Origin: Bryobacteraceae bacterium
Lineage (GTDB): Bacteria; Acidobacteriota; Terriglobia; Bryobacterales; Bryobacteraceae
NCBI GenBank assembly: GCA_014379815.1
Contig: JACMLA010000676.1
Coordinates: 1 to 9,772 of the forward strand
Reading direction: 5' to 3'
Length of the DNA: 9,772 nucleotides
Part shown: one piece after another, positions 1 through 9,772 of the stretch
How positions within the stretch are numbered: the first letter of the stretch is position 1
How the letters are laid out: the number at the start of each line of letters is the position of its first letter
Program-made: the position numbers and the translations under genes
The notes under the pieces: generated by a model
The model's database searches: none
Seen by the model: only the letters and a program-made list of their open reading frames with translations
Told to the model about the DNA's origin: nothing

Positions 1-1246
<1,246 letters not shown>

Positions 1247-1275
1247 TTAGGTTACCTCCCCCAGGCGTTTCACTA

Positions 1276-1306
1276 CATAAAAATAAACACATCCGGGGCA
1301 GATGTG
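1276..1306 (-). terminator. Terminator-like hairpin with T-rich tail in the rpoD leader
   Basis: On the minus strand, CACATC (1306-1301) and GATGTG (1293-1288) form a perfect 6-bp stem, extendable by one G-T pair. The loop is TGCCCCG. TTTATTTTTATG follows immediately (1287-1276). This is the form of an intrinsic terminator, although the stem is short and only moderately GC-rich. It lies between the candidate rpoD promoter and the rpoD ribosome binding site. It could therefore act as an attenuator in the leader, or stop read-through from nrdR. No clear competing antiterminator pairing was found by eye. Confidence 0.35.
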
Positions 1307-1395
1307 CGAGGGTGTCGGTCCGAAGTCCGGGAAAGAATCGGAAACGAAGCGTTTTGGGAAACTTTTTGGAATTGCGCTTGTGTAGAGCGTGAGCC

Positions 1396-1401
1396 AGTAT
1401 A
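1396..1401 (-). promoter_or_regulatory. Candidate extended -10 promoter for rpoD
   Basis: Read on the minus strand, the hexamer is TATACT (5 of 6 to TATAAT). TG sits one base upstream (TGTTATACT), the extended -10 pattern of housekeeping sigma-70 promoters. No good -35 is found at 16-18 bp spacing (TAACAG at 17 bp). A TTGGGG exists further up, but at 24 bp. Transcription would start near 1389, giving a leader that includes the hairpin at 1288-1306. Confidence 0.4.
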
Positions 1402-1556
1402 ACACCAAAGCCCCGGGTCTGTTAGCCCCAATTTAAAGATGTTTCGACATCGTTTCGGTTTCAGGTAAATCTTACAATCCAGAACCACCGACCCTGTACT
1501 ATTTCGATGCTCGAGGTCCCACATAAGTAACGCGTAGTTCGAACGGCTTGCGGAAT

Positions 1557-2027
1557 TTAATGTGGATCCGAGCGTTTGTGCCGAATCAAGTCCGATACTT
1601 CGTTCAGGAAGGCCTCTACGTCCTGGAAATCCCTGTAAACGGAAGCGAACCGCACGTAAGCTATTTTGTCCAGACCCCGGAGCCGGGCCATCAGAAACTC
1701 GCCCACCTCGGTCGTCGACATCTCGCGATCGGCATTTTCTGCCAGCTGGCTTTCGACATCGTCTACCATCGCGGCGATATCGCCCATGGCGACCGGGCGT
1801 TTTTCACAGGCTTTCAGCAGGCCAGACAGGACTTTCTGCCTGTCGAACTTTTCGCGGCGGCCATCCTTTTTGATCACCATCCAGGGAATCTCGTCGATGC
1901 GTTCGTAGGTTGTGAACCTTTTCCCGCACTTGAGGCACTCCCGGCGGCGGCGGATCAGTTCTCCTTCCCGGCTTTCCCGCGAATCGATGACTTTATCTTC
2001 CGGATGCGCGCAGAACGGACATTTCAT
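1557..2027 (-). CDS. nrdR: Transcriptional repressor NrdR
   Basis: NrdR is the zinc-ribbon/ATP-cone repressor of ribonucleotide reductase genes. It senses dATP/ATP and binds NrdR boxes upstream of nrd operons. The 156-residue protein has the usual family length. Its N-terminal zinc ribbon carries C3xxC6 and C31xxC34, with the family signature MKCPFC, VIDSRESREG, IRRRRECLKCGKRFTTYER. The ATP-cone follows from about residue 49 to 139 (VIKKDGRREKFDRQKV, then GLDKIAYVRFASVYRDF). Its ATG overlaps the stop of the upstream membrane protein gene (ATGA, 2024-2027), so the two are probably cotranscribed and translationally coupled. No ribonucleotide reductase gene or NrdR box was seen in the window. 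The identification is unambiguous from sequence motifs. Confidence 0.97.
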   Translation of the reverse strand: MKCPFCAHPEDKVIDSRESREGELIRRRRECLKCGKRFTTYERIDEIPWMVIKKDGRREKFDRQKVLSGLLKACEKRPVAMGDIAAMVDDVESQLAENADREMSTTEVGEFLMARLRGLDKIAYVRFASVYRDFQDVEAFLNEVSDLIRHKRSDPH

Positions 2028-3073
2028 CCTTCAACGGCCTTAGCTTCCTGATTACTGATATTGCGCAGATTCTGCCACTGCAGGCCTTCAGTAAAGGCGA
2101 AAAACAGCCCAAACGGAGCAATCGCGAGCCAGCTAACAGCCCAGACAAGCAGGGCGAATGCGGTTGCGGGCTCGATGCCAAGACCGAAGAGCTGCGTCAG
2201 AATCAGGACGGCCGCCGCCTGCAGGCCGCCTCCGATAGCCGGCAGCTGGACGATTCCGCCAAACACCACAAATCCGGTAAACACGAGAGTGTCGTTCAGA
2301 GAAAATCCCGACGTTGGGGGGAACGCACGGAGAAGGGAGTACATCGATCCGGAGATCAGAATCCATTCGACCGCCGTCCAGCCAAGCACGGCGCCGAGAG
2401 TGCGGAGGTCGCCGGTAGACTGAAGTCCAGTGAGGAACGCGTCGAGGCTGCGCTGTACGAAACCTCCGATGCGGGCAGGGAGAATTCCCGCGATTGCCGC
2501 TGCTCCGCTTCGGGCTCTTTCGGTAAAAAGCGCAGCTACCAGCAGAAACAGGACGCAACCTGCCCCGGCAACCACGGCCAGCCATCCGGCGGCTTGCAGT
2601 AGATCCCGAATCTGAGCAGGAACGGCTAGATCGCTTCGCAGACCGGCTAATGAGATACCGAACAGAAGGACCACACTGAGCAGATCGAAGATTCGCTCGA
2701 GAAACCAGGCCGCGATCTGGGACGAGAGCGTGACGCGTTCGCGGACGGAGATCAGCCAGGGTCGGACCAGCTCTCCGGGTCGCCCAAATAGAAGAACGGC
2801 GGTAAAGCCGATGGCTGTAGCCGTGATGAGGTGCCGGAGCGAGGCATTGGGCCGGATGGGAGTCATCATGACCTGCCAGCGCAGGGCCCGGATGAGGTAA
2901 GTAATCAGGTTGAGCACTACCGCCGCGGTAGCCCAGCCGCCGTGAAGCGAAGCCAGGCTTTGTCCAAACTCGCTCCACTGGAAGCCGGACCCGGAGAAGC
3001 GCGCGATACCGGCGGCCACGGCTGCCACCAGCACAACGATGAGGACGATCAGCCCGATACGACGTGATTGCAA
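2024..3073 (-). CDS. Flippase-like integral membrane protein (LPG synthase TM family, UPF0104/YbhN-like)
   Basis: This is a 349-residue, very hydrophobic protein of the lysylphosphatidylglycerol-synthase transmembrane family (flippase-like domain). Members without the catalytic domain are thought to move lipids or lipid-linked substrates across the inner membrane. The substrate here cannot be told. A first membrane segment spans about residues 6-23. Family motifs are visible: RALRWQVMM (62-70), GRPGELVRPWL (97-107), ERIFDLL (126-132) and PAIGGGLQAAAVL (278-290). No soluble C-terminal acyltransferase or aminoacyl-transferase domain is present, so this is not a full MprF. The start is a TTG, with GAGGAG at 3085-3090 (11 nt spacing). 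An in-frame TGA lies just upstream and no ATG or GTG is available there, so TTG is the only nearby standard choice. The gene overlaps nrdR by 4 bp. Confidence 0.85.
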   Translation of the reverse strand: MQSRRIGLIVLIVVLVAAVAAGIARFSGSGFQWSEFGQSLASLHGGWATAAVVLNLITYLIRALRWQVMMTPIRPNASLRHLITATAIGFTAVLLFGRPGELVRPWLISVRERVTLSSQIAAWFLERIFDLLSVVLLFGISLAGLRSDLAVPAQIRDLLQAAGWLAVVAGAGCVLFLLVAALFTERARSGAAAIAGILPARIGGFVQRSLDAFLTGLQSTGDLRTLGAVLGWTAVEWILISGSMYSLLRAFPPTSGFSLNDTLVFTGFVVFGGIVQLPAIGGGLQAAAVLILTQLFGLGIEPATAFALLVWAVSWLAIAPFGLFFAFTEGLQWQNLRNISNQEAKAVEG

Positions 3074-3126
3074 TGGGTTCCAGACTCCTCAGGGTGTTCT
3101 ATGATATTGCGAACGACGAAAACCTC

Positions 3127-3154
3127 GAACTTCCAATGATAATTCTTCGTTCTA
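3127..3154 (+). promoter_or_regulatory. Candidate ECF-type promoter upstream of the sigma operon
   Basis: GAACTT (3127-3132) is followed after 15 bp by CGTTCTA (3148-3154). This resembles the ECF sigma layout of an AAC-containing -35 and a CGT/TCTA-like -10. It sits 60 bp before the sigma-factor ATG, as expected if the operon is autoregulated. The call is based on pattern only, and short motifs of this kind also occur by chance. Confidence 0.35.
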
Positions 3155-3214
3155 CCAGTCAGGTGCGGCACAGGCAAACAGCTGGGCAGAGCGGCGCCGG
3201 GACCGGAGAACGGA

Positions 3215-3889
3215 ATGGCATTTGTTGCGACGATGCAGGGCGATGGAGGATTCCCAGGCTTGCCTTTAGCACATGGCGGAGCATGGACCGGGCGCGGGAC
3301 GGCTTCGGTACGAGCTGAATCTTTGGATCCTGACTTTCAGCTGGTGAACGAGTGTCTCTCCGGGGACGAAGCCGCGTGGGAGGAACTGGTCCGCACCCAC
3401 ACGCGCCGCGTCTATGCGGTCTGCTTCCGCTTCACGGGCACGGGGGAAGGAGCTCAGGATCTGACGCAGGAAGTGTTTCTGCGTGTGTTCCGGACCCTCA
3501 GAAGCTTCCGCTCGAATGAGGGCTCTTTCTCAGTTTGGCTAAACCGGCTGACGCGGAACCTGCTGATCGACCACTATCGGAAGAGCAGACAGGATCGGGC
3601 GACTGAATCGCTGGAAGAGCAACTGCCGTTTTTCGAGGAATCGACCGCGTTGACTTCCAGAGCCGATGGCATGCTTGCCGGAAGGGAAGCCAGCGAGCTG
3701 TTGCAGAAAGCGCTCCAGAGGCTATCGCCGGAGTTGCGGGAGACTGTCATTCTGCGGGATATGGAAGAGCTGGAGTATCGGGAAATTGCTGCGATCTTGA
3801 AGGTGCCGGAAGGTACGGTGAAGTCGCGGCTAAATCGTGGACGCGCCGAGATGGCAAGAATACTGAGGCGGTTTAAGGCCGTGGTCTGA
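3215..3889 (+). CDS. ECF-family RNA polymerase sigma factor
   Basis: This extracytoplasmic-function sigma factor (224 residues as called) redirects RNA polymerase to a stress regulon. Region 2 covers about residues 45-125 and contains QDLTQEVFLRVF (81-92) and FSVWLNRLTRNLLIDHYRK (105-123). Region 4 covers about 158-220 with LQRLSPELRETVILRDMEE, then the helix-turn-helix EIAAILKVPEGTVKSRLNRG (190-209). Regions 1 and 3 are absent, as in all ECF factors. The ATG at 3215 is supported by GGAG 6 nt upstream. Even so, the first 38 or so residues are Gly/Ala-rich and unlike a sigma domain, so a later start (for example TTG near 3323) is possible. A zinc-finger anti-sigma gene begins 7 nt after the stop, which argues for sigma/anti-sigma pairing. 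The gene heads a six-gene operon of membrane proteins. Confidence 0.95.
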   Translation: MAFVATMQGDGGFPGLPLAHGGAWTGRGTASVRAESLDPDFQLVNECLSGDEAAWEELVRTHTRRVYAVCFRFTGTGEGAQDLTQEVFLRVFRTLRSFRSNEGSFSVWLNRLTRNLLIDHYRKSRQDRATESLEEQLPFFEESTALTSRADGMLAGREASELLQKALQRLSPELRETVILRDMEELEYREIAAILKVPEGTVKSRLNRGRAEMARILRRFKAVV

Positions 3890-3896
3890 GAGTTTT

Positions 3897-4481
3897 ATGA
3901 CGTGCGCTGAGTTTGAAATCCTGTTGTGCGACTACATTGACGGAACGCTCGACGCCGGTCAGCGTGCTGTAGTCGAGGACCATCAGCGGACGTGTGTTTC
4001 GTGTGCAGAACTGGCCCGGGATGCTGCAGTTGCCGTCGCGTTTGTGTCCCGGGCAGAAGCGGTGGAACCGCCCCCCGAGTTGCTGTCCAGGATCGCTTTT
4101 GCCATTCCTGCGCAGGGTTCGCGAAAGGGCTGGAAGCAGACGTGGTTCGGCTGGTTGCGACCGGCATTGCAGCCCCGGGTTGCCATGGGTATGGCGATGA
4201 CGATCTTCTCGTTTTCGATGCTGGGTCGCTTCGCTGGAATCGAGGTCAGGCAATTGAAGCCTTCCGACCTGCACCCGGCGGCGGTGTGGTCGGCGCTGGA
4301 TAACCGGCTGCACCGGACCTGGGAGCGAGCCGTGAAGAATTACGAGAACCTCAGGCTGGTGTACGAGGTGCAATCCCGGCTGCAGGAATGGACCGAGCAG
4401 GAAGAAGAAGAGAGGAAAACGCGTGCTCCTGAAAGCAGCGTAGTTCCAGGCGAGACGGAAAAGGGAAAGGGATCGAAATGA
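3897..4481 (+). CDS. Zinc-finger (HC2-type) membrane anti-sigma factor
   Basis: This is the likely anti-sigma factor that holds the preceding ECF sigma at the membrane until a signal arrives. The N-terminus (1-45) has the anti-sigma zinc-finger pattern: C3, CDYIDGTLD (11-19), then H29xxxC33xxC36. One hydrophobic segment at about 94-110 (RVAMGMAMTIFSFSMLG) is the probable membrane anchor. The C-terminal part (about 130-194) is charged and probably helical (LDNRLHRTWERAVKNYENL, then a Glu-rich run at 166-172), ending in a polar tail. The gene starts 7 nt after the sigma stop with only a weak GAGAG upstream, and its stop overlaps the next ATG by 4 bp (ATGA). The context supports regulated release by proteolysis or conformational change, but no cleavage site can be identified by eye. 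Confidence 0.85.
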   Translation: MTCAEFEILLCDYIDGTLDAGQRAVVEDHQRTCVSCAELARDAAVAVAFVSRAEAVEPPPELLSRIAFAIPAQGSRKGWKQTWFGWLRPALQPRVAMGMAMTIFSFSMLGRFAGIEVRQLKPSDLHPAAVWSALDNRLHRTWERAVKNYENLRLVYEVQSRLQEWTEQEEEERKTRAPESSVVPGETEKGKGSK

Positions 4482-5167
4482 ATTGCGTAAATCATCCGGA
4501 AGAATCAGCATCTGCGTTCTGCCGCACCTGTGGCAAAGCCCTGTGCGATTTGTGTCAGAGACCGGCTCTGGGGACCGTATTCTGTCAGGAGCACGTTGCG
4601 GGTTTCTCTCCACCACCGCCGCCACCCAGACCGGATGCCGGCAGCCCCTGGACCGCCAGCGCAGCTTACGCACCTCCTTCGGTTGAAAACTTTGCGTCGT
4701 CACCCGGTCTCGCGTTCTTCCTTGGGTTTATTCCCGGAGTGGGAGCCGTATACAACGGACAGTACGCCAAAGGACTGATCCACGCGGTGATCTTTGGCCT
4801 GATGGTGAGTATTACGAGTTCCGGGGCAGCCCCAGGCATGGAACCCTTAATTGGAATATCCATGGCCGCATTTATTTTCTATATGGCGTTTGAGGCCTAT
4901 CACACGGCAATTCGCAGGCAAAGGGGAGAAGCCGTGGACGAGTTTTCGAGCATACTCCCGATGCACAAACGCAGCGGAGCACAGGGTCTTCCAATAGGAC
5001 CTATCGTGATGATTGTTCTAGGAGTGATCTTCCTGATGAGCACTCTCGAGATCGTTCTGATGCGGGATCTGCTCCGATTCTGGCCTGTTTTCCTGATCGG
5101 TCTTGGAGGATATCTGCTGTGGGTCCGGGTCACGGGCAAGGAAGTAGGAGTAAGCGGCAATGATTAA
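4478..5167 (+). CDS. B-box-like zinc-finger protein with TM2-like and LiaF-like membrane segments
   Basis: This 229-residue membrane protein has an N-terminal double zinc-binding motif: C3xxH6, C15xxC18, C23xxC26, C36xxH39. The arrangement matches B-box type zinc fingers. A proline run (45-50) links it to a hydrophobic segment with the turn FIPGVGAVYNGQYAKGL (84-100), reminiscent of TM2-domain proteins. Another hydrophobic stretch follows at about 122-141. The C-terminus (172-217) is one LiaI/LiaF-like two-helix module: GPIVMIVLGVIFLMS, then RFWPVFLIGLGGYLLW. The cytosolic zinc finger may dock a partner such as the anti-sigma or sigma; that is inference. The start overlaps the anti-sigma stop (4 bp) and the stop overlaps the next gene (8 bp). 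Confidence 0.75.
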   Translation: MNCVNHPEESASAFCRTCGKALCDLCQRPALGTVFCQEHVAGFSPPPPPPRPDAGSPWTASAAYAPPSVENFASSPGLAFFLGFIPGVGAVYNGQYAKGLIHAVIFGLMVSITSSGAAPGMEPLIGISMAAFIFYMAFEAYHTAIRRQRGEAVDEFSSILPMHKRSGAQGLPIGPIVMIVLGVIFLMSTLEIVLMRDLLRFWPVFLIGLGGYLLWVRVTGKEVGVSGND

Positions 5168-5417
5168 TTCGTTTACTTTGCTGCGGGCGGTTCGTGGTCC
5201 GATCGTGCTGATCGCTTTAGGACTGCTGTTCCTGATGGATCAGCAGGATGTCGCAGCGTTTCGCCGAACCTGGCCAATCCTGTTGATTCTGTTTGGCGTG
5301 TTCAAACTCGCGGAGAGACTGCTGGCCCCTCCTCAGGTTCCTCCGGCTTACTATGGTCCGCCAACGGGTGGCAACTGGACACCTCCGGCATCGCCACAAG
5401 GAGGAACACAGGCATGA
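5160..5417 (+). CDS. Small LiaI/LiaF-like membrane protein (one module)
   Basis: This 85-residue protein consists of a single LiaI/LiaF-type transmembrane module followed by a short tail. Helix one is about residues 13-26 (GPIVLIALGLLFLM). A short polar turn follows, then helix two at about 38-51 (TWPILLILFGVFKLAE). The tail (57-85) is rich in Pro, Gly and Tyr (APPQVPPAYYGPPTGG) and is probably disordered. The gene overlaps its upstream neighbour by 8 bp and its downstream neighbour by 4 bp, which indicates a translationally coupled membrane complex. In Firmicutes, LiaF-type proteins act in cell-envelope stress control; the role here is inferred from the family and from the sigma/anti-sigma neighbours. 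Confidence 0.75.
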   Translation: MINSFTLLRAVRGPIVLIALGLLFLMDQQDVAAFRRTWPILLILFGVFKLAERLLAPPQVPPAYYGPPTGGNWTPPASPQGGTQA

Positions 5418-5770
5418 TGAAGAACCGGTTCATAGGCCCGGTCCTGTTGATCACCCTGGGGCTGCTGCTGTTTGTAAACAATCTGGTTTTCCAGCTTCCT
5501 CTGGGCCAACTCGCATCGGAGTTCTGGCCCATCTGGCTGATCGTTCCAGGGATCATCCAGATCGGGTTAGGGTTATCCGCAGGCCTGGCACGCGGCTGGG
5601 GAGCGCTGACCGGGGGCGTGATTACCACCGTCATCGGATGCTTGTTTGTCCTGCAGAACACAGGCGCTGTCGGGTTTGACCGATCCTGGCCCGTGATCCT
5701 GATCGTGGTCGGTCTGATGGAGGCGATGCGCTTTGTAGCCGGAGTACCTTTACGGAGGGGAGTGAGATGA
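5414..5770 (+). CDS. LiaI/LiaF-like membrane protein with two tandem modules
   Basis: This 118-residue protein is almost entirely two copies of the same two-helix module. Copy one (about 6-54) is IGPVLLITLGLLLFVNN, then EFWPIWLIVPGIIQIGL. Copy two (about 67-106) is GGVITTVIGCLFVLQNTG, then RSWPVILIVVGLMEAMR. Together they predict four membrane segments with a basic C-terminal end (PLRRGVR). Both junctions are 4-bp ATGA overlaps (5414-5417 and 5767-5770). The tandem copies look like an internal duplication of the 85-residue neighbour. No catalytic residues are apparent, so a scaffold or sensor role in the membrane is the most reasonable inference. Confidence 0.75.
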   Translation: MMKNRFIGPVLLITLGLLLFVNNLVFQLPLGQLASEFWPIWLIVPGIIQIGLGLSAGLARGWGALTGGVITTVIGCLFVLQNTGAVGFDRSWPVILIVVGLMEAMRFVAGVPLRRGVR

Positions 5771-7248
5771 GACGCGGCTCTCTGGTTGCCCCTTTAGTTC
5801 TGATCCTGCTGGGCGTGCTCTTCCTGCTCAACAACGTGCAGCCAGAGCTGTCCTTAATCGGCATCGCCGCGCAGTACTGGCCCTTCCTGCTGATTGCGTG
5901 GGGAGGGCTCCGCCTGGTAGAGATTCTGCTCTGGTCAGCCCAGGGGAAAGCGTTGCCTGTCTCAGGGATTTCAGGCGGCGAATGGACGTTCATTGTCTTC
6001 CTGAGCATCTTCGGTTCAGGCGCTCATGTGGCGACGCACCGGGAACGCTGGCCGGGTTTTAATGTCCGGTTGCGCGGCCTCGAGGTGCTGGGCGACGTCT
6101 ACGACTATCCGATCGAAGAGAAAGTGGTCTCCACAAGTGGCGGCTCCCAGATCCGGGTTGTCCTGGAGAGCTTACGTGGAAACGCGCGCATCACCGGTGC
6201 CGATGTTTCCGAGGTTCGGGTGACGGGACGCAAAACCATCCGGGCGATGGACAAGAGCGATGCGGATCGTGCCGCAGAGGGTCTGGTGTGGGAGGTGGTG
6301 CGCGAGGGCTCGACCGTGTTGATCCGGCCCAAGGGCAATTTGCCCACCGACAACGACCTGACAGTTTCGACCGATCTGGACATTACGGTGCCGGCGCAGT
6401 CGCGGGTTGAGGCGCGAGGCCGGCGCGGCGATTTCGATATCAGCGACATTCGGGGCGATGTGGACATCGATAGCGACAATGCCGGAGTCCGGTTGCAAAA
6501 CATCTCGGGGAACGCAAGAATCGAACTCCGTGCCAGCGATATCGTCCGTGCGATCGGGGTCACTGGCAATGTCGAGATCAAAGGGTCGGGCCATGACATT
6601 GAACTGGAAAACATCGAAGGTCAGGCTACCGTTTCGGGGAGTTATGTAGGGGAGCTACAGTTCCGGGCGATTGCGAAACCTGTGCGCTTCGAGGGCGGCT
6701 CAAAGAAGTACCTCACGGAACTCCAGGTAGAAGCGTGTCCCGGCCAGATTCGCATGAACCGCGGCAATCTGAGTATGGAGAACGTCACGGGCCCGGTTAC
6801 CGTAGAGGCGAAGTCGAAGGATGTGCAGATTTCCGGATTCTCGAACGGTCTGGATTTGCGGGTAGACCGCGGCGATCTTGAAATTCACGCGGGAAACATC
6901 AGCTTGCCCCGGATCAATGCAGTTACCAAATCCGGAAACATTGAGCTGACGATTCCGGAAAATGCGCAATTTTCTCTAAAGGGCTCGGTAGATAAGGGCG
7001 AAATTGAGAATGATTACGGATCCATGCTCTCCGTGAGGGACGGAGATCGTGGAGGCACCCTTACCGGTGCTATCGGAGGCGGCCCTGAGCTGATCGTGCA
7101 CACCAACCGCGGCGTCCTCCGCCTGCGCAAAGGGGGAAGTGCGGAGATCGCCGAACCCATCCCTCCGACGCCACCTCGTCCCACAGCGAGCCGGGTTCCA
7201 GCGAGGGCAGCCGAGATCGTCAGGCCCATACCGGTTGAGCGCAATTAG
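5767..7248 (+). CDS. LiaF-like membrane anchor fused to a large DUF4097-type beta-repeat domain
   Basis: This 493-residue protein has a LiaF-like N-terminus: helix one about 7-24 (VAPLVLILLGVLFLLNN), helix two about 37-56 (YWPFLLIAWGGLRLVEILLW) and a third hydrophobic stretch at about 73-85. The rest, from about 100 to 457, is a run of short beta-strand repeats (GDFDISDIRGDVDIDSDNAG, GNVEIKGSGHDIELENIEG, KSGNIELTIPENAQF). This is the look of the DUF4097 adhesin-like beta-solenoid fold. The tail (463-493) is Pro-rich and basic. Positive-inside reasoning with three helices would put the solenoid outside the cytoplasm, but this is uncertain. As the last gene of the operon, with a 4-bp overlap to the preceding gene, it is the most plausible ligand- or stress-sensing component. 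It ends 16 nt before the convergent PilZ gene. Confidence 0.8.
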   Translation: MRRGSLVAPLVLILLGVLFLLNNVQPELSLIGIAAQYWPFLLIAWGGLRLVEILLWSAQGKALPVSGISGGEWTFIVFLSIFGSGAHVATHRERWPGFNVRLRGLEVLGDVYDYPIEEKVVSTSGGSQIRVVLESLRGNARITGADVSEVRVTGRKTIRAMDKSDADRAAEGLVWEVVREGSTVLIRPKGNLPTDNDLTVSTDLDITVPAQSRVEARGRRGDFDISDIRGDVDIDSDNAGVRLQNISGNARIELRASDIVRAIGVTGNVEIKGSGHDIELENIEGQATVSGSYVGELQFRAIAKPVRFEGGSKKYLTELQVEACPGQIRMNRGNLSMENVTGPVTVEAKSKDVQISGFSNGLDLRVDRGDLEIHAGNISLPRINAVTKSGNIELTIPENAQFSLKGSVDKGEIENDYGSMLSVRDGDRGGTLTGAIGGGPELIVHTNRGVLRLRKGGSAEIAEPIPPTPPRPTASRVPARAAEIVRPIPVERN

Positions 7249-7264
7249 GCTTGCCTCGGCCTCG

Positions 7265-7603
7265 CTAACGCTTTGCTTCTTTATCGTTTGCAGGTGTGCG
7301 GCAGTACTCCATCCCAAGCTGAAAGACTCCGTCCAGAGGACGGCAGCTGCGAACGATGGCGTACCGCTCAAAGATGGTGTTCTTCAAGAGAAGGACAACG
7401 CCGGGATCCACAAAGTAATCTACCTGGACCGCGATTCCGCCGCCGCTGATGTCGATCAGAAGCGATGGTCCAACCGGTTTACGGTCTCCCCATTGAGTGA
7501 GACGGTACACGTGCAGCAATCCAACCGACGCTGCTGGTTTGCGGGGAGTCTTGCGATGTTCCTTTGCGATGTCAGCCATTACACAAAAAGGGTGGCCTGA
7601 CAT
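7265..7603 (-). CDS. PilZ-domain protein (putative c-di-GMP receptor)
   Basis: This is a small stand-alone PilZ protein, a family that binds the second messenger cyclic-di-GMP to control motility, exopolysaccharide or other outputs. Both halves of the ligand-binding signature are visible: RKTPR (RxxxR) in the N-terminal linker and DISGGG (D/NxSxxG) about 30 residues later, followed by a strand-rich region ending in LGMEYCRTP. Binding is therefore likely retained. The start is uncertain. The ATG at 7603 is used here (112 residues); an ATG at 7579 (MADIAKEHRK, 104 residues) is equally possible, and neither has a good Shine-Dalgarno site. A TTG at 7618 is less likely. The gene lies 60 bp downstream of rsfS on the same strand and converges on the LiaF-like operon. 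Its output partner cannot be told from the sequence. Confidence 0.85.
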   Translation of the reverse strand: MSGHPFCVMADIAKEHRKTPRKPAASVGLLHVYRLTQWGDRKPVGPSLLIDISGGGIAVQVDYFVDPGVVLLLKNTIFERYAIVRSCRPLDGVFQLGMEYCRTPANDKEAKR

Positions 7604-7663
7604 GGCGAGAAATCTCAAAAAGTAGTGTTACAGGAAAGCAACGGCAAAGCGGACTTCTGCTGT

Positions 7664-8086
7664 TTATGCTAGAGCAGGTTCTTCCGGGGGAATCTCCATG
7701 CGTTTCGCGTGCCGCCAGAGCCGTTCCAGATCGTAGTATAAGCGCGTCTTCTCAATGAAGATGTGCAGGATGAAGTCACCGTAGTCCATCAGAACCCATT
7801 CGGCGTTGTCGTAACCTTCCACGCTGACAGGAAGCTCGCCGCGATCGTTCTTCATCTGGACGTGAACTTCGTCGCAGACGGCCTGATTCTGGCGGGTATT
7901 CGTCCCGGTGCAGATGATGAAAAAATCCGTAAGGCTGGTTATGTCGCGGAGATCGAGGGCAACAAAATCGAGAGCTTTCTTTGACTGTGCGGCGCGAACA
8001 GCTGTGAACCAGTTGAGTTGGCCAACGTCAACTTCACTTGCTGCTGCTGAGGGAATAGCCGTAAGATCCTCGTGTTGCGTGCGGAT
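7664..8086 (-). CDS. rsfS: Ribosomal silencing factor RsfS, with non-canonical start
   Basis: RsfS (RsfA/Iojap family) binds ribosomal protein uL14 and blocks subunit joining when nutrients are scarce. The core is clear: KKALDFVALDLRDITSLTDF, FIICTGTNTRQNQAVCDEV, then VEGYDNAEWVLMDYGDFILH and YYDLERLW. The frame is open from the TAG at 8102-8104 down to the TAA at 7664. It contains no ATG, GTG or TTG before the internal Met at 7855, which lies in the middle of the conserved domain and cannot be the true start. The best placed candidate is ATC at 8086, with AGGAG (8093-8097) 6 nt upstream, giving 140 residues. ATT at 8056 is another option. Homologues usually begin near the LNWFTAVRAAQ segment (about residue 24 here), so a CTC or other start there, or a sequencing error, must be considered. 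The gene is divergent from the exported-protein gene. Confidence 0.88.
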   Translation of the reverse strand: MRTQHEDLTAIPSAAASEVDVGQLNWFTAVRAAQSKKALDFVALDLRDITSLTDFFIICTGTNTRQNQAVCDEVHVQMKNDRGELPVSVEGYDNAEWVLMDYGDFILHIFIEKTRLYYDLERLWRHAKRMEIPPEEPALA

Positions 8087-8092
8087 ACTGTT

Positions 8093-8097
8093 CTCCT
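8093..8097 (-). promoter_or_regulatory. Shine-Dalgarno site preceding the ATC codon of rsfS
   Basis: On the minus strand AGGAG lies 6 nt before an ATC codon (8084-8086) that is in frame with RsfS. It is the only strong ribosome binding site at the start of the open frame, and the in-frame TAG is 4 nt upstream of it. This makes ATC initiation the simplest reading, but it is not proven. Confidence 0.4.
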
Positions 8098-8123
8098 GCG
8101 GCTATCGTACTACACTAAAAGAG

Positions 8124-9002
8124 GTGCGTCTATTTGGCATAGCAATCGGATTTGTATTCTTACTTACTCTAGTTCAGGCGCAGACCACCAGTCCAGCGAG
8201 CCCTGCCGGATCCTCCGTCGATCTTAGTACTGCGCCGATGGCGGACTTGACTGAGATCAAAAAGATGGAAGTGGACCGCCTCCGGGCGATGGCGGAAGCC
8301 GGTGCGATTCCTCGCGCGAGACTGGAGCAGGCTCAGGCGGAACTGGCAGACTCGAGAGACAACATGATCCTCCGGCGAAGCCTGTATGGAAGCGTTCGCG
8401 TTGAGGACTTCACACCGGAGCAGGCAGACCAGATGGTCGAGGCCGCCCAGAGGCTGGTGGACCGGCAGTCGGATCGGTTTGAGAGTTCTAAAACTCTTGT
8501 CCGTGAAGGCGTAATGGCTCGGGCAAACCTCGTGGCCATGCTGGAAGATCTCGAGTTCCGGCGTAAAGCTCTGGATCTGGCTCACTTTCGGGCGAAACTC
8601 GTTGAGGAATTGGGAGAATACGCCCGCGCCGAGGAAGCAGCGGATTCTGACGACGGCGTGACGTTTCGGCTGGGTCGGATTGTCGAAAAGTTTAATGGTG
8701 GGGGCATTTTCACCAATCTCGACTGGGCTCGTGTGTCTACGGCATTTCAAAAGCAGTTTGCACGCCCTCTGCCTGTCAGTGCCAAAGGCGAAACGGCGAC
8801 TCACCGTGCGCTGGGCTTTGACCATCGGGGCCGTGTCGACATCGCTTTGAACCCGGACCAGCGCGAGGGAGTCTGGCTTCGCGGCTTTCTGAAACGTGCC
8901 CGCATCCCCTATTTCGCATTCCGAGCCGCAGTACGGGGCTCCGCCACGGCACCACATATCCACCTTGGACCGCCGAGCTTACGTCTGCGGATCGCTGACT
9001 AA
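8124..9002 (+). CDS. Exported protein with coiled-coil hairpin and possible M15-like zinc-peptidase C-terminus
   Basis: I do not recognise this 292-residue protein as a named family. The N-terminus is a signal peptide (MRLFGIAIGFVFLLTLVQAQ, likely cleaved near residue 20), so it acts outside the cytoplasm. Residues 42-172 are charged and helical. They hold two similar elements 69 residues apart: GAIPRARLEQAQAELADSRD (60-79) and GVMARANLVAMLEDLEFRRK (129-148), resembling the hairpins of TolC/HlyD-type proteins. The C-terminus (about 205-288) has H227, D233, H234, D239 in THRALGFDHRGRVDIALNP and H278/H280 in APHIHLGPPS. That pattern of His and Asp suits a zinc peptidase of the M15/DD-peptidase type; the assignment is tentative. 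The GTG at 8124 is chosen because it places the signal peptide first. It has no spaced Shine-Dalgarno site. The open frame continues upstream across rsfS, where it is only antisense shadow. Confidence 0.7.
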   Translation: MRLFGIAIGFVFLLTLVQAQTTSPASPAGSSVDLSTAPMADLTEIKKMEVDRLRAMAEAGAIPRARLEQAQAELADSRDNMILRRSLYGSVRVEDFTPEQADQMVEAAQRLVDRQSDRFESSKTLVREGVMARANLVAMLEDLEFRRKALDLAHFRAKLVEELGEYARAEEAADSDDGVTFRLGRIVEKFNGGGIFTNLDWARVSTAFQKQFARPLPVSAKGETATHRALGFDHRGRVDIALNPDQREGVWLRGFLKRARIPYFAFRAAVRGSATAPHIHLGPPSLRLRIAD

Positions 9003-9023
9003 CAATCGGACCCTACTAACAAT
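8998..9023 (+). repeat. Direct repeat ACTAACAAT flanking the gap before hpt
   Basis: ACTAACAAT occurs at 8998-9006 and again at 9015-9023, and the bases after each copy are similar (CGGA and AGAA). The first copy spans the stop codon of the exported-protein gene and the second ends 3 nt before the hpt ATG. It may be chance or a small regulatory site; nothing else supports a role. Confidence 0.3.
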
Positions 9024-9026
9024 AGA

Positions 9027-9557
9027 ATGAGCGAACACAGGCTTCGCACCCTGATCCCCGCCAGTGACATTGCAGAACGGGTTGCCGCTTTGGGACGGCA
9101 GATTACGATTGACTACCCGGGCGACGCGCCCCTGTACCTCGTAGGAATCCTGAAAGGTGCCGTGATGTTCCATGCCGATCTGGCCCGCGCCATTACCCGG
9201 CCGGTGCGTGTCGACTTCATAGGAATCTCCAGCTACGGAAAAGAGAAAACCAGCTCCGGTCAGGTGAAGCTGACAAAGGATCTCGATATCTCCATTGAAG
9301 GCGCAGACGTGCTGGTGGTGGAGGACATTGTCGACACCGGAGTCACGCTGACGTACCTGCTAGGTGTGCTGCATCAGCGCAAGCCGAAAAGCATCCGGAT
9401 TGCCGCCTTCCTCGACAAGCCGGAACGCCGGATGCGCCCCGTCCATGCCAGCTATGTCGGCTTCACGATTCCAGACGAGTTCGTAGTGGGATACGGCCTC
9501 GACTTCGCCGAAGATTATCGCCACCTCAGAGATGTGTGCGTTCTGGAAAGCGATTAA
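9027..9557 (+). CDS. hpt: Hypoxanthine phosphoribosyltransferase
   Basis: This enzyme converts hypoxanthine (and usually guanine) plus PRPP to IMP/GMP in cytoplasmic purine salvage. The 176 residues match the normal bacterial length. Visible motifs are ILKGA (41-45), the flexible-loop SSYG segment (68-71), the PRPP-binding motif VLVVEDIVDTGVTL (95-108) with the acidic pair E99-D100, and the purine-binding part (AAFLDKP 126-132; VGYGLDFAEDYRHL 154-167). All expected catalytic residues appear intact. The ATG lies 24 nt after the stop of the exported-protein gene and lacks a recognisable Shine-Dalgarno site. Cotranscription with that gene is likely from the spacing, although no functional link is evident. 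Confidence 0.96.
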   Translation: MSEHRLRTLIPASDIAERVAALGRQITIDYPGDAPLYLVGILKGAVMFHADLARAITRPVRVDFIGISSYGKEKTSSGQVKLTKDLDISIEGADVLVVEDIVDTGVTLTYLLGVLHQRKPKSIRIAAFLDKPERRMRPVHASYVGFTIPDEFVVGYGLDFAEDYRHLRDVCVLESD

Positions 9558-9626
9558 AGACACCTGTGGCGTGAGTTGTTTTGGTTTCCTTCCCCGCGAC
9601 CTTGGTTTACGCCCTGATTCTCTCTG

Positions 9627-9772
9627 TTATGCGGCCTCCGGCACTGGAATGGGTTGTGTGTCCTGGGTTTCCGGGGCTTCGGGTACCGGGACGATTGCGC
9701 ATGTTTCGTCCTGACCGAAGGAAGCCAATTTCTCTTCATTTGCTGGGGGAAAGTCCCAGCGGCCCTCCAAAA
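9627..9772 (-). CDS. C-terminal end of an unidentified protein (5' part beyond window)
   Basis: On the minus strand an open frame enters from the window edge and ends at TAA (9627-9629), giving 47 residues. It reads LEGRWDFPPANEEKLASFG, then a tail rich in Pro, Glu, Val and Ala (VPVPEAPETQDTQPIPVPEA). The amino-acid composition is like a disordered C-terminal tail of a real protein, and no conserved domain is visible. It converges on hpt with about 70 bp between the two stops. A competing plus-strand frame (ATG at 9701) also runs to the edge but has no better support. Confidence 0.4.
   Translation of the reverse strand, partial: LEGRWDFPPANEEKLASFGQDETCAIVPVPEAPETQDTQPIPVPEAA

Follow-up and report, generated by a model that had tools for sequence, protein, structure and literature searches.

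What does an extracytoplasmic function (ECF) sigma factor do at the head of a series of LiaF-like membrane genes? This question is raised by a stretch of DNA from a Bryobacteraceae bacterium (assembly GCA_014379815.1, contig JACMLA010000676.1, positions 1 to 9,772 of the forward strand; the whole 9,772 nucleotides are hereafter called the window), in which six consecutive genes encode a sigma factor, an anti-sigma factor and four membrane proteins. LiaF, LiaI, Toastrack and PspC are widespread, and what is known of how they signal comes mostly from two-component and PspF-type systems; in Firmicutes, LiaF-type proteins regulate envelope stress responses through the LiaRS two-component system. 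From sequence comparisons, we propose with a probability of about 0.62 that the window carries a self-controlled ECF sigma/anti-sigma operon running a Lia/Psp-like cell-envelope stress response in Acidobacteriota.

Organization of the operon

All six genes lie on the plus strand. The sigma gene (3215..3889, 224 amino acids; its start is the first one of the open reading frame and is putative) is preceded by the ECF-type promoter motif GAAC-N17-CGTT (3127..3151, plus strand), which is kept in related loci, and is followed by the anti-sigma gene (3897..4481, 194 amino acids). The third gene (4478..5167) encodes a B-box zinc finger, three hydrophobic helices and a C-terminal LiaI-LiaF-TM (TM, transmembrane) module at about 4994-5119, as recognised by Pfam zf-B_box and LiaI-LiaF-like_TM1. 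It is followed by lia1 (5160..5417, 85 amino acids), with a single LiaI-LiaF-like_TM1 module at about 5199-5306, and by lia2 (5414..5770, 118 amino acids), in which the same Pfam model marks two modules in two stretches. The last gene (5767..7248, 493 amino acids) combines a LiaI-LiaF-TM module and a third hydrophobic helix with a Toastrack domain (Pfam DUF4097, about 6565-7035). As claimed in an earlier interpretation of the bare letters (the sequence-only reading), the six reading frames overlap by 4, 8, 4 and 4 bp from the anti-sigma gene onward, and all five W-P-x-x-L-I strings quoted there are present. The overlapping genes, together with the gene order kept in related genomes, also bear out its claim of a single operon. 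The operon DNA gave no match when compared with plasmids, and an Rfam scan of the window gave none at gathering scores.

Conservation in Acidobacteriota

A contig scan with the B-box protein yielded 34 loci, 33 from records named after Acidobacteria or one of its subgroups and one, with a short match, from a Spirochaete metagenome-assembled genome. In the 33 acidobacterial loci, the order sigma, anti-sigma, B-box/LiaF, LiaF and Toastrack is kept as far as the contigs extend, with lia1 fused into the B-box gene in some of them and a 4-bp overlap between the anti-sigma and B-box genes in 28. The conserved gene order that the sequence-only reading had staked its proposal on is thus present in related Acidobacteriota genomes. 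Groups of loci are called window-like according to their similarity to the window, and the record names sometimes disagree with these labels.

Across the phylum, 74 of 149 sampled genomes encode a protein related to B-box/LiaF at E <= 1e-20, weaker matches being without the B-box part. From those genomes, 75 loci were taken, one of which (L037) is the same place as L006 of the first scan. A same-strand ECF sigma gene lies upstream in 64 of the 65 loci with at least 1.5 kb of upstream sequence, and a recognised anti-sigma gene in 54 of these 65, while a Toastrack gene follows downstream in 31 of the 56 loci with 1.5 kb on that side. Nine loci free of Toastrack were read individually; their core consists of the sigma factor, the anti-sigma factor (not seen in all of them) and a single TM protein that may or may not have a B-box, and the third gene has a single module in the cases read. 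The LiaF module of the one such TM protein scanned scored 21.7 against the Pfam cut-off of 27. Six Toastrack-free loci (L058, L060, L068, L073, L075 and L077) encode a sigma factor, an anti-sigma factor and a B-box/LiaF-type protein, with GAAC-N17-CGTA 5' of the sigma gene in 6/6.

Promoter upstream of the sigma gene

Within 350 bp upstream of the sigma gene, GAAC-N17-CGT(A/T) was found in 26 of 29 related loci (L007 is cut short), and the -10 element of this first set is CGTT in window-like loci and mostly CGTA in the others. In a second set, 48 loci in which the upstream region is complete, GAAC-N16-18-CGT(A/C/T) occurs in 43, against a background of 7.0%, and the N17 form GAAC-N17-CGT(A/C/T) in 40, against 4.2% in random stretches of equal length. 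Thirty of these 40 sites carry CGTT or CGTA and 10 carry CGTC, and the spacer sequences differ between most loci. Since the motif is conserved and looks as an ECF promoter should, the operon is very probably controlled by its own sigma factor, and the sequence-only reading's idea that the sigma factor governs the membrane genes is, to the same degree, borne out.

Two further matches were observed near this region. One, GAAC-N17-CGTA, falls in the last sigma codons before the anti-sigma gene in most of L011-L032 (for example, L012:5208); it is probably a coding coincidence and possibly an internal promoter. The other is a GGAACTT-N15-CGTA site at L016:3535, which lies about 0.85 kb further upstream than the sigma promoter.

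Sigma, anti-sigma and Toastrack proteins

The sigma factor matches Sigma70_r2 (70.9 bits) and Sigma70_r4_2 (58.7 bits) over cut-off with no region 3 listed, as in an ECF sigma factor, and scores 106.2 against the cut-off of 42.9 for TIGR02937. It matches SigE and SigW, and it stays below the NCBIfam SigW equivalog cut-offs (114.1 versus 209 for NF007223, and 107.3 versus 243.1 for TIGR02948); it may already have a group number in the 2021 ECF reclassification. The anti-sigma protein matches zf-HC2 (27.7 bits over 22.2) and has one putative TM segment (residues 95-113); its N-terminal Hx3Cx2C motif and the position of its gene next to the sigma gene mark a class I zinc-binding anti-sigma domain. 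We aligned the window protein with those of 26 of the 33 loci (contig ends or unclear starts removed L008, L020, L023, L027, L028, L029 and L032). C3 and H29-x3-C33-x2-C36 are invariant in 27/27 sequences, and a conserved KxYENLRxVYExxSR-like stretch follows the weakly hydrophobic segment. Of the solved structures, RsiW (5wuq, E 5.4e-9) comes closest to the resulting profile. For the same reasons, the B-box alignment holds the window and 31 of 34 loci (without L028, L032 and L034), and the Toastrack alignment the window and 28 of 32 (without L011, L023, L028 and L033).

The Toastrack domain scored 39.3 bits over 22.9 for PF13349 (DUF4097), and the protein reached 44.4 against the 285 needed for LiaG (NF049997). 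A PDB search with the Toastrack profile gave no match at E <= 0.01, so the solenoid assignment rests on Pfam DUF4097. Three hydrophobic helices precede the solenoid in 28 of the 29 aligned proteins; because these helices, together with a basic N-terminus, lie ahead of it, hydropathy places the Toastrack domain most likely on the outer face of the membrane.

LiaF-TM modules and the lia2 gene

The model PF18917 (LiaI-LiaF-like TM) scores 34.2, 36.4 and 47.2 bits in three window proteins, over its cut-off of 27, and the N-terminal module of the Toastrack protein, the fifth, lies just below the curated cut-offs (22.8 versus 27 and 26.8 versus 27 bits). When the modules were compared with each other, 10 of 10 pairs exceeded the mean of 500 composition shuffles and nine also the largest of them, two by merely 1-2 points, the sole exception being the pair formed by the halves of lia2, lia2a-lia2b (z 3.4). 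The pairs score 40-87; fragments of another, unrelated membrane protein from the window reach at most 33. The sequence-only reading had put five LiaF-like modules in four overlapping genes, and this description stands for the window; as a general design it was rejected, since operons of 14 of 16 related genomes contain exactly three module matches, those of the other two contain two, and lia2 is the best match of no reading frame in the related loci that extend to the Toastrack gene. Elsewhere in four genomes, extra pairs or triples of LiaI-LiaF-TM modules occur beyond the operon (G003:C189, G007:C141, G008:C400 and G010:C112).

In 32 of the 33 acidobacterial loci, those extending to the Toastrack gene, lia2 is the best match of no open reading frame, and when a large protein collection was searched with lia2, 59 candidates were scored, of which a single one, 98% identical, proved to be a homologue. 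As far as relatives were sampled, lia2 thus looks like a gene private to this lineage. Against profiles of the orthologues, lia2a scored 40.7 bits with toastN (the N-terminal module of the Toastrack protein), 24.0 with lia1 and 23.1 with the B-box protein, and lia2b 44.0 with lia1, 14.3 with toastN and 22.6 with the B-box protein, so that the first half appears to be of the toastN type and the second of the lia1 type. Because lia2 is flanked by lia1 and the Toastrack gene and its halves match those two, we infer that it arose by tandem duplication of the lia1-toastN junction. The duplication left no clear trace at the DNA level, only in the protein profiles, and is thus either old or absent. 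One could still take the five recognisable modules in four overlapping genes as a purpose-built multi-module sensor; the count of three in most related genomes, the single-module third gene of the Toastrack-free loci and the apparently private origin of lia2 make this highly improbable.

Predicted targets of the sigma factor

In a genome-wide search, GGAACTT-N15-CGTA gave 61 matches in 12 genomes versus 17 for the reversed pattern, and a control with the wrong spacing, N12, gave 21 versus 17. We then compared between genomes the genes downstream of 54 of these 61 sites (the other seven being four PspC sites and three in the sigma coding end) and of 75 of the 81 GAACTT-N15-CGTT sites (six at the operon itself were left out); some downstream stretches ended at contig ends. 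A zinc-ribbon PspC protein (PF04024, E 7e-25) was among the shared targets. Of 30 operon-bearing genomes examined for PspC, 21 had a match, and in 14 of the 16 genomes G001-G016 the best locus has GAAC-N16-18-CGT within 300 bp (15 of 16 when a second paralogue is included), against a chance rate of about 5% per 300 bp as scaled from the random-stretch background; 10 of these 14 sites lie at -45 to -49. Another shared target is a small membrane protein of 51-70 amino acids without a Pfam match, which is present in a single copy in 16/16 genomes and preceded by the motif in 16/16, with 15 sites at -35 to -58 and one at -127; its conserved core reads WP(L/I/V)A...YP...W..LLPFR (L275-L290).

Other shared targets were seen in fewer genomes. 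ATP-binding cassette (ABC) ATPases (ABC_tran; MacB/LolD-like by eye) are common to four genomes, permeases to three (MacB_PCD and FtsX match the one scanned) and fusion-protein-like genes to three (in the one scanned, biotin-lipoyl lies over cut-off and HlyD_2 under). A secreted protein of about 320 amino acids is common to three genomes and a secreted Toastrack-like protein to two (the one scanned matches DUF4097 at E 1e-7 and has a signal peptide by eye), and two further target pairs are shared between genomes. Shared clusters of ECF sigma factors and of unidentified fragments are probably explained by family size alone. By the evidence of these related genomes, PspC, the small membrane protein, the exporter genes and the secreted Toastrack protein are a probable regulon of the operon's sigma factor, and a secreted Toastrack in this regulon fits the outward placement of the domain in the operon.

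Which sigma factor reads the motif

In G001, 30 of 32 matches of the sigma-70 family were examined, and GAAC-N17-CGT(A/T) lies no more than 600 bp upstream of region 2 at one of these loci, that of the operon; the 600 bp may miss the promoters of long housekeeping sigma factors. In G010, two of 30 loci have the site, namely the operon's own and an RpoE-like one. This RpoE-like ECF sigma factor was found in 14 of 16 genomes, its loci carry a motif site in 2/16, and it was rejected as the owner of the motif since 14/16 loci are without it. Another ECF sigma factor with the motif, in G004, was also set aside; one other genome has a close relative of it (72%), and three relatives stand at 37-38%. 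Because the motif lies upstream of few other sigma loci, the operon's sigma factor is its natural owner, and the wider sites are probably read by it.

Proposed mechanism and alternatives

We propose that at rest the zinc-finger anti-sigma factor would hold the sigma factor, as is usual in its family. The B-box/LiaF-TM, LiaF-TM and LiaF-TM/Toastrack proteins, as their place in a conserved operon suggests, may sense envelope disturbance and control the anti-sigma factor; in the simplest mechanism they would set its activity as LiaF sets LiaS. The membrane complex gating the anti-sigma factor that the sequence-only reading envisaged is a hypothesis of this kind. Once freed, the sigma factor would transcribe its own operon from GAAC-N17-CGT, a step strongly supported by the conserved promoter, and may also drive the zinc-ribbon PspC and the small membrane protein and, in fewer genomes, ABC exporters and the secreted Toastrack, for which the related genomes give circumstantial evidence. 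A bolder form of this proposal, which we advance tentatively, is that Acidobacteriota run a Psp/Lia-type defence through a dedicated and widely kept ECF sigma factor whose operon carries its own sensor, an assembly of LiaF-TM modules, its Toastrack solenoid facing outward, that monitors the condition of the envelope and keeps hold of the anti-sigma factor. The regulon of PspC, the conserved small membrane protein, ABC exporters and secreted Toastrack would then parallel the Bacillus sigma-W regulon by convergence, and Toastrack would be an extracytoplasmic sensing domain.

Several observations weigh against this proposal. Twenty-five of the 56 phylum loci with 1.5 kb downstream are without a Toastrack gene there, so the Toastrack part is dispensable. 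Three loci of the first set (L012, L013 and L015) are without the promoter motif, and the promoter counts come from orthologous promoters, which are non-independent observations. The hydrophobic segment of the anti-sigma protein is weak in the window's group (1.25-1.86). As for the targets, GAACTT-N15-CGTT is in weak excess genome-wide (81 matches in 7 genomes versus 58 for the reversed pattern), the PspC site was found in one of five other genomes that carry the operon and match PspC more weakly, and in 17 of 27 PspC-like loci taken together, and the ABC ATPases form a huge family whose sharing proves little. Moreover, in the window-like genomes (G001-G007 and G016) the operon's -10 is CGTT in 8/8 and that of the small-protein sites CGTA in 7/8, so that another sigma factor, one that does not control its own gene, could drive the targets. 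Among 20 searched genomes of the 75 without a detected operon, six have a PspC match and four of these the GAAC-N16-18-CGT site (L228, L229, L230 and L231); such genomes may hold a more distant operon.

The last points favour an alternative in which the sigma factor runs its own operon alone, the membrane proteins are effectors that patch or stabilise the membrane rather than sensors, and the sites at PspC, the small protein and the exporters are those of a different ECF sigma factor with a similar promoter. Such a division of labour would account for the differing -10 elements, for PspC sites in genomes with no detected operon and for the low enrichment of the CGTT form. However, both -10 forms occur within one genome (in G004, CGTT at PspC and CGTA at the small protein; in G016, CGTA at the best PspC and CGTT at the small protein), operon and targets share CGTA throughout G008-G015, and none of the other 29 examined sigma loci of G001 has the motif upstream, and we therefore regard this alternative as unlikely. 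Somewhat better placed, yet still doubtful, is a release of the RsiW kind, in which a protease would cut the anti-sigma factor under stress and the LiaF/Toastrack proteins would merely shield or present it; it is compatible with our proposal, of which it could form the lower half, and the odds of the two overlap. RsiW is a substrate of regulated proteolysis, and the RsiW-like profile of the anti-sigma protein and its one putative TM segment would suit this route, but in the window, the only locus searched for a protease, none of the six operon genes encodes one. We thus retain the self-controlled operon with a Lia/Psp-like envelope response as the preferred interpretation.

Flanking genes

Upstream of the operon, the 5' part of rpoD, nrdR and a flippase-like gene of the LPG_synthase_TM family are divergently arranged on the minus strand (1-3073); rpoD and nrdR stand near the operon in 8 and 9 of the 33 related loci, all of them window-like relatives. 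Downstream (7265-9557), a reading frame of 117 amino acids that matches nothing in Pfam and is PilZ-like by eye is accompanied by rsfS, which lies on the minus strand, by an unmatched reading frame and by a hypoxanthine phosphoribosyltransferase gene. A tblastn search with these downstream genes gave no match in the fetched stretches of the 33 loci.

Comparison with known systems

The literature searched, with subscription papers mostly outside it, showed no paper on this operon, its promoter or its regulon, and described no envelope-stress regulon for an ECF sigma factor in Acidobacteriota. PMC9239133 reconstructs Psp networks in Acidobacteriota around PspA, with no occurrence of 'ecf', and neither LiaF nor DUF4097 occurs in PMC7406223. 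None of six terms sought in PMC8103513 appears there. The claim of the sequence-only reading that the system is undescribed was nevertheless too strong. Ravi et al. 2024 (PMC11237479) define LiaI-LiaF-TM and Toastrack and report Toastrack neighbourhoods that are free of PspA and contain B-box, LiaI-LiaF-TM or PspC; one sentence mentions 'an operonically linked sigma factor'. These neighbourhoods share with the present operon the same domains, the idea of a membrane signal passed to transcription and the mention of a sigma factor. They differ in that no anti-sigma factor, promoter or regulon is given in the parts of the paper covered, and 'ecf' and 'acidobacteri' occur 0 times in its main text. 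Ravi et al. also propose an intracellular Toastrack (PMC11237479), whereas here the helices point it outside; an outward, sensing Toastrack would, if true, be the opposite of the published proposal.

As in LiaFSR of Firmicutes, a LiaI-LiaF-TM module and Toastrack are linked to a transcription switch. The switch itself is different, being an ECF sigma/anti-sigma pair; a Pfam scan of ten window proteins gave neither a kinase nor a receiver domain or response regulator, and no LiaF C-terminal domain model matched. The notion that the pair replaces the two-component system therefore holds in spirit, in that the ECF pair stands where Firmicutes have LiaRS.

The second relative is sigma-W/RsiW of Bacillus subtilis, likewise an ECF sigma factor with an Hx3Cx2C anti-sigma factor, whose RsiW is matched by the anti-sigma profile. 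In B. subtilis, yknYZ encode a MacB-like exporter. Core sigma-W operons there include yvlABCD and yknWXYZ (PMC3498285), and YvlB has DUF4097 and YvlC is a PspC homologue (PMC9239133), so that, as far as these sources were covered, the predicted acidobacterial targets PspC, Toastrack and exporter genes mirror core sigma-W operons. Unlike there, the LiaF-TM and Toastrack genes lie here inside the sigma operon itself, a B-box protein is added, the sigma factor falls below the SigW cut-offs, and the phylum is another one. An ECF-wired version of this kind can be approached through its promoter motif, through a few predicted targets and through a simple minimal form of three genes, and makes the role of LiaF-TM and Toastrack in holding the regulator directly testable; it also supplies a predicted envelope-stress regulon for Acidobacteriota and draws attention to the conserved small membrane protein. 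The operon is thus best read as an ECF-run variant of the known Lia/Psp-like envelope stress responses.

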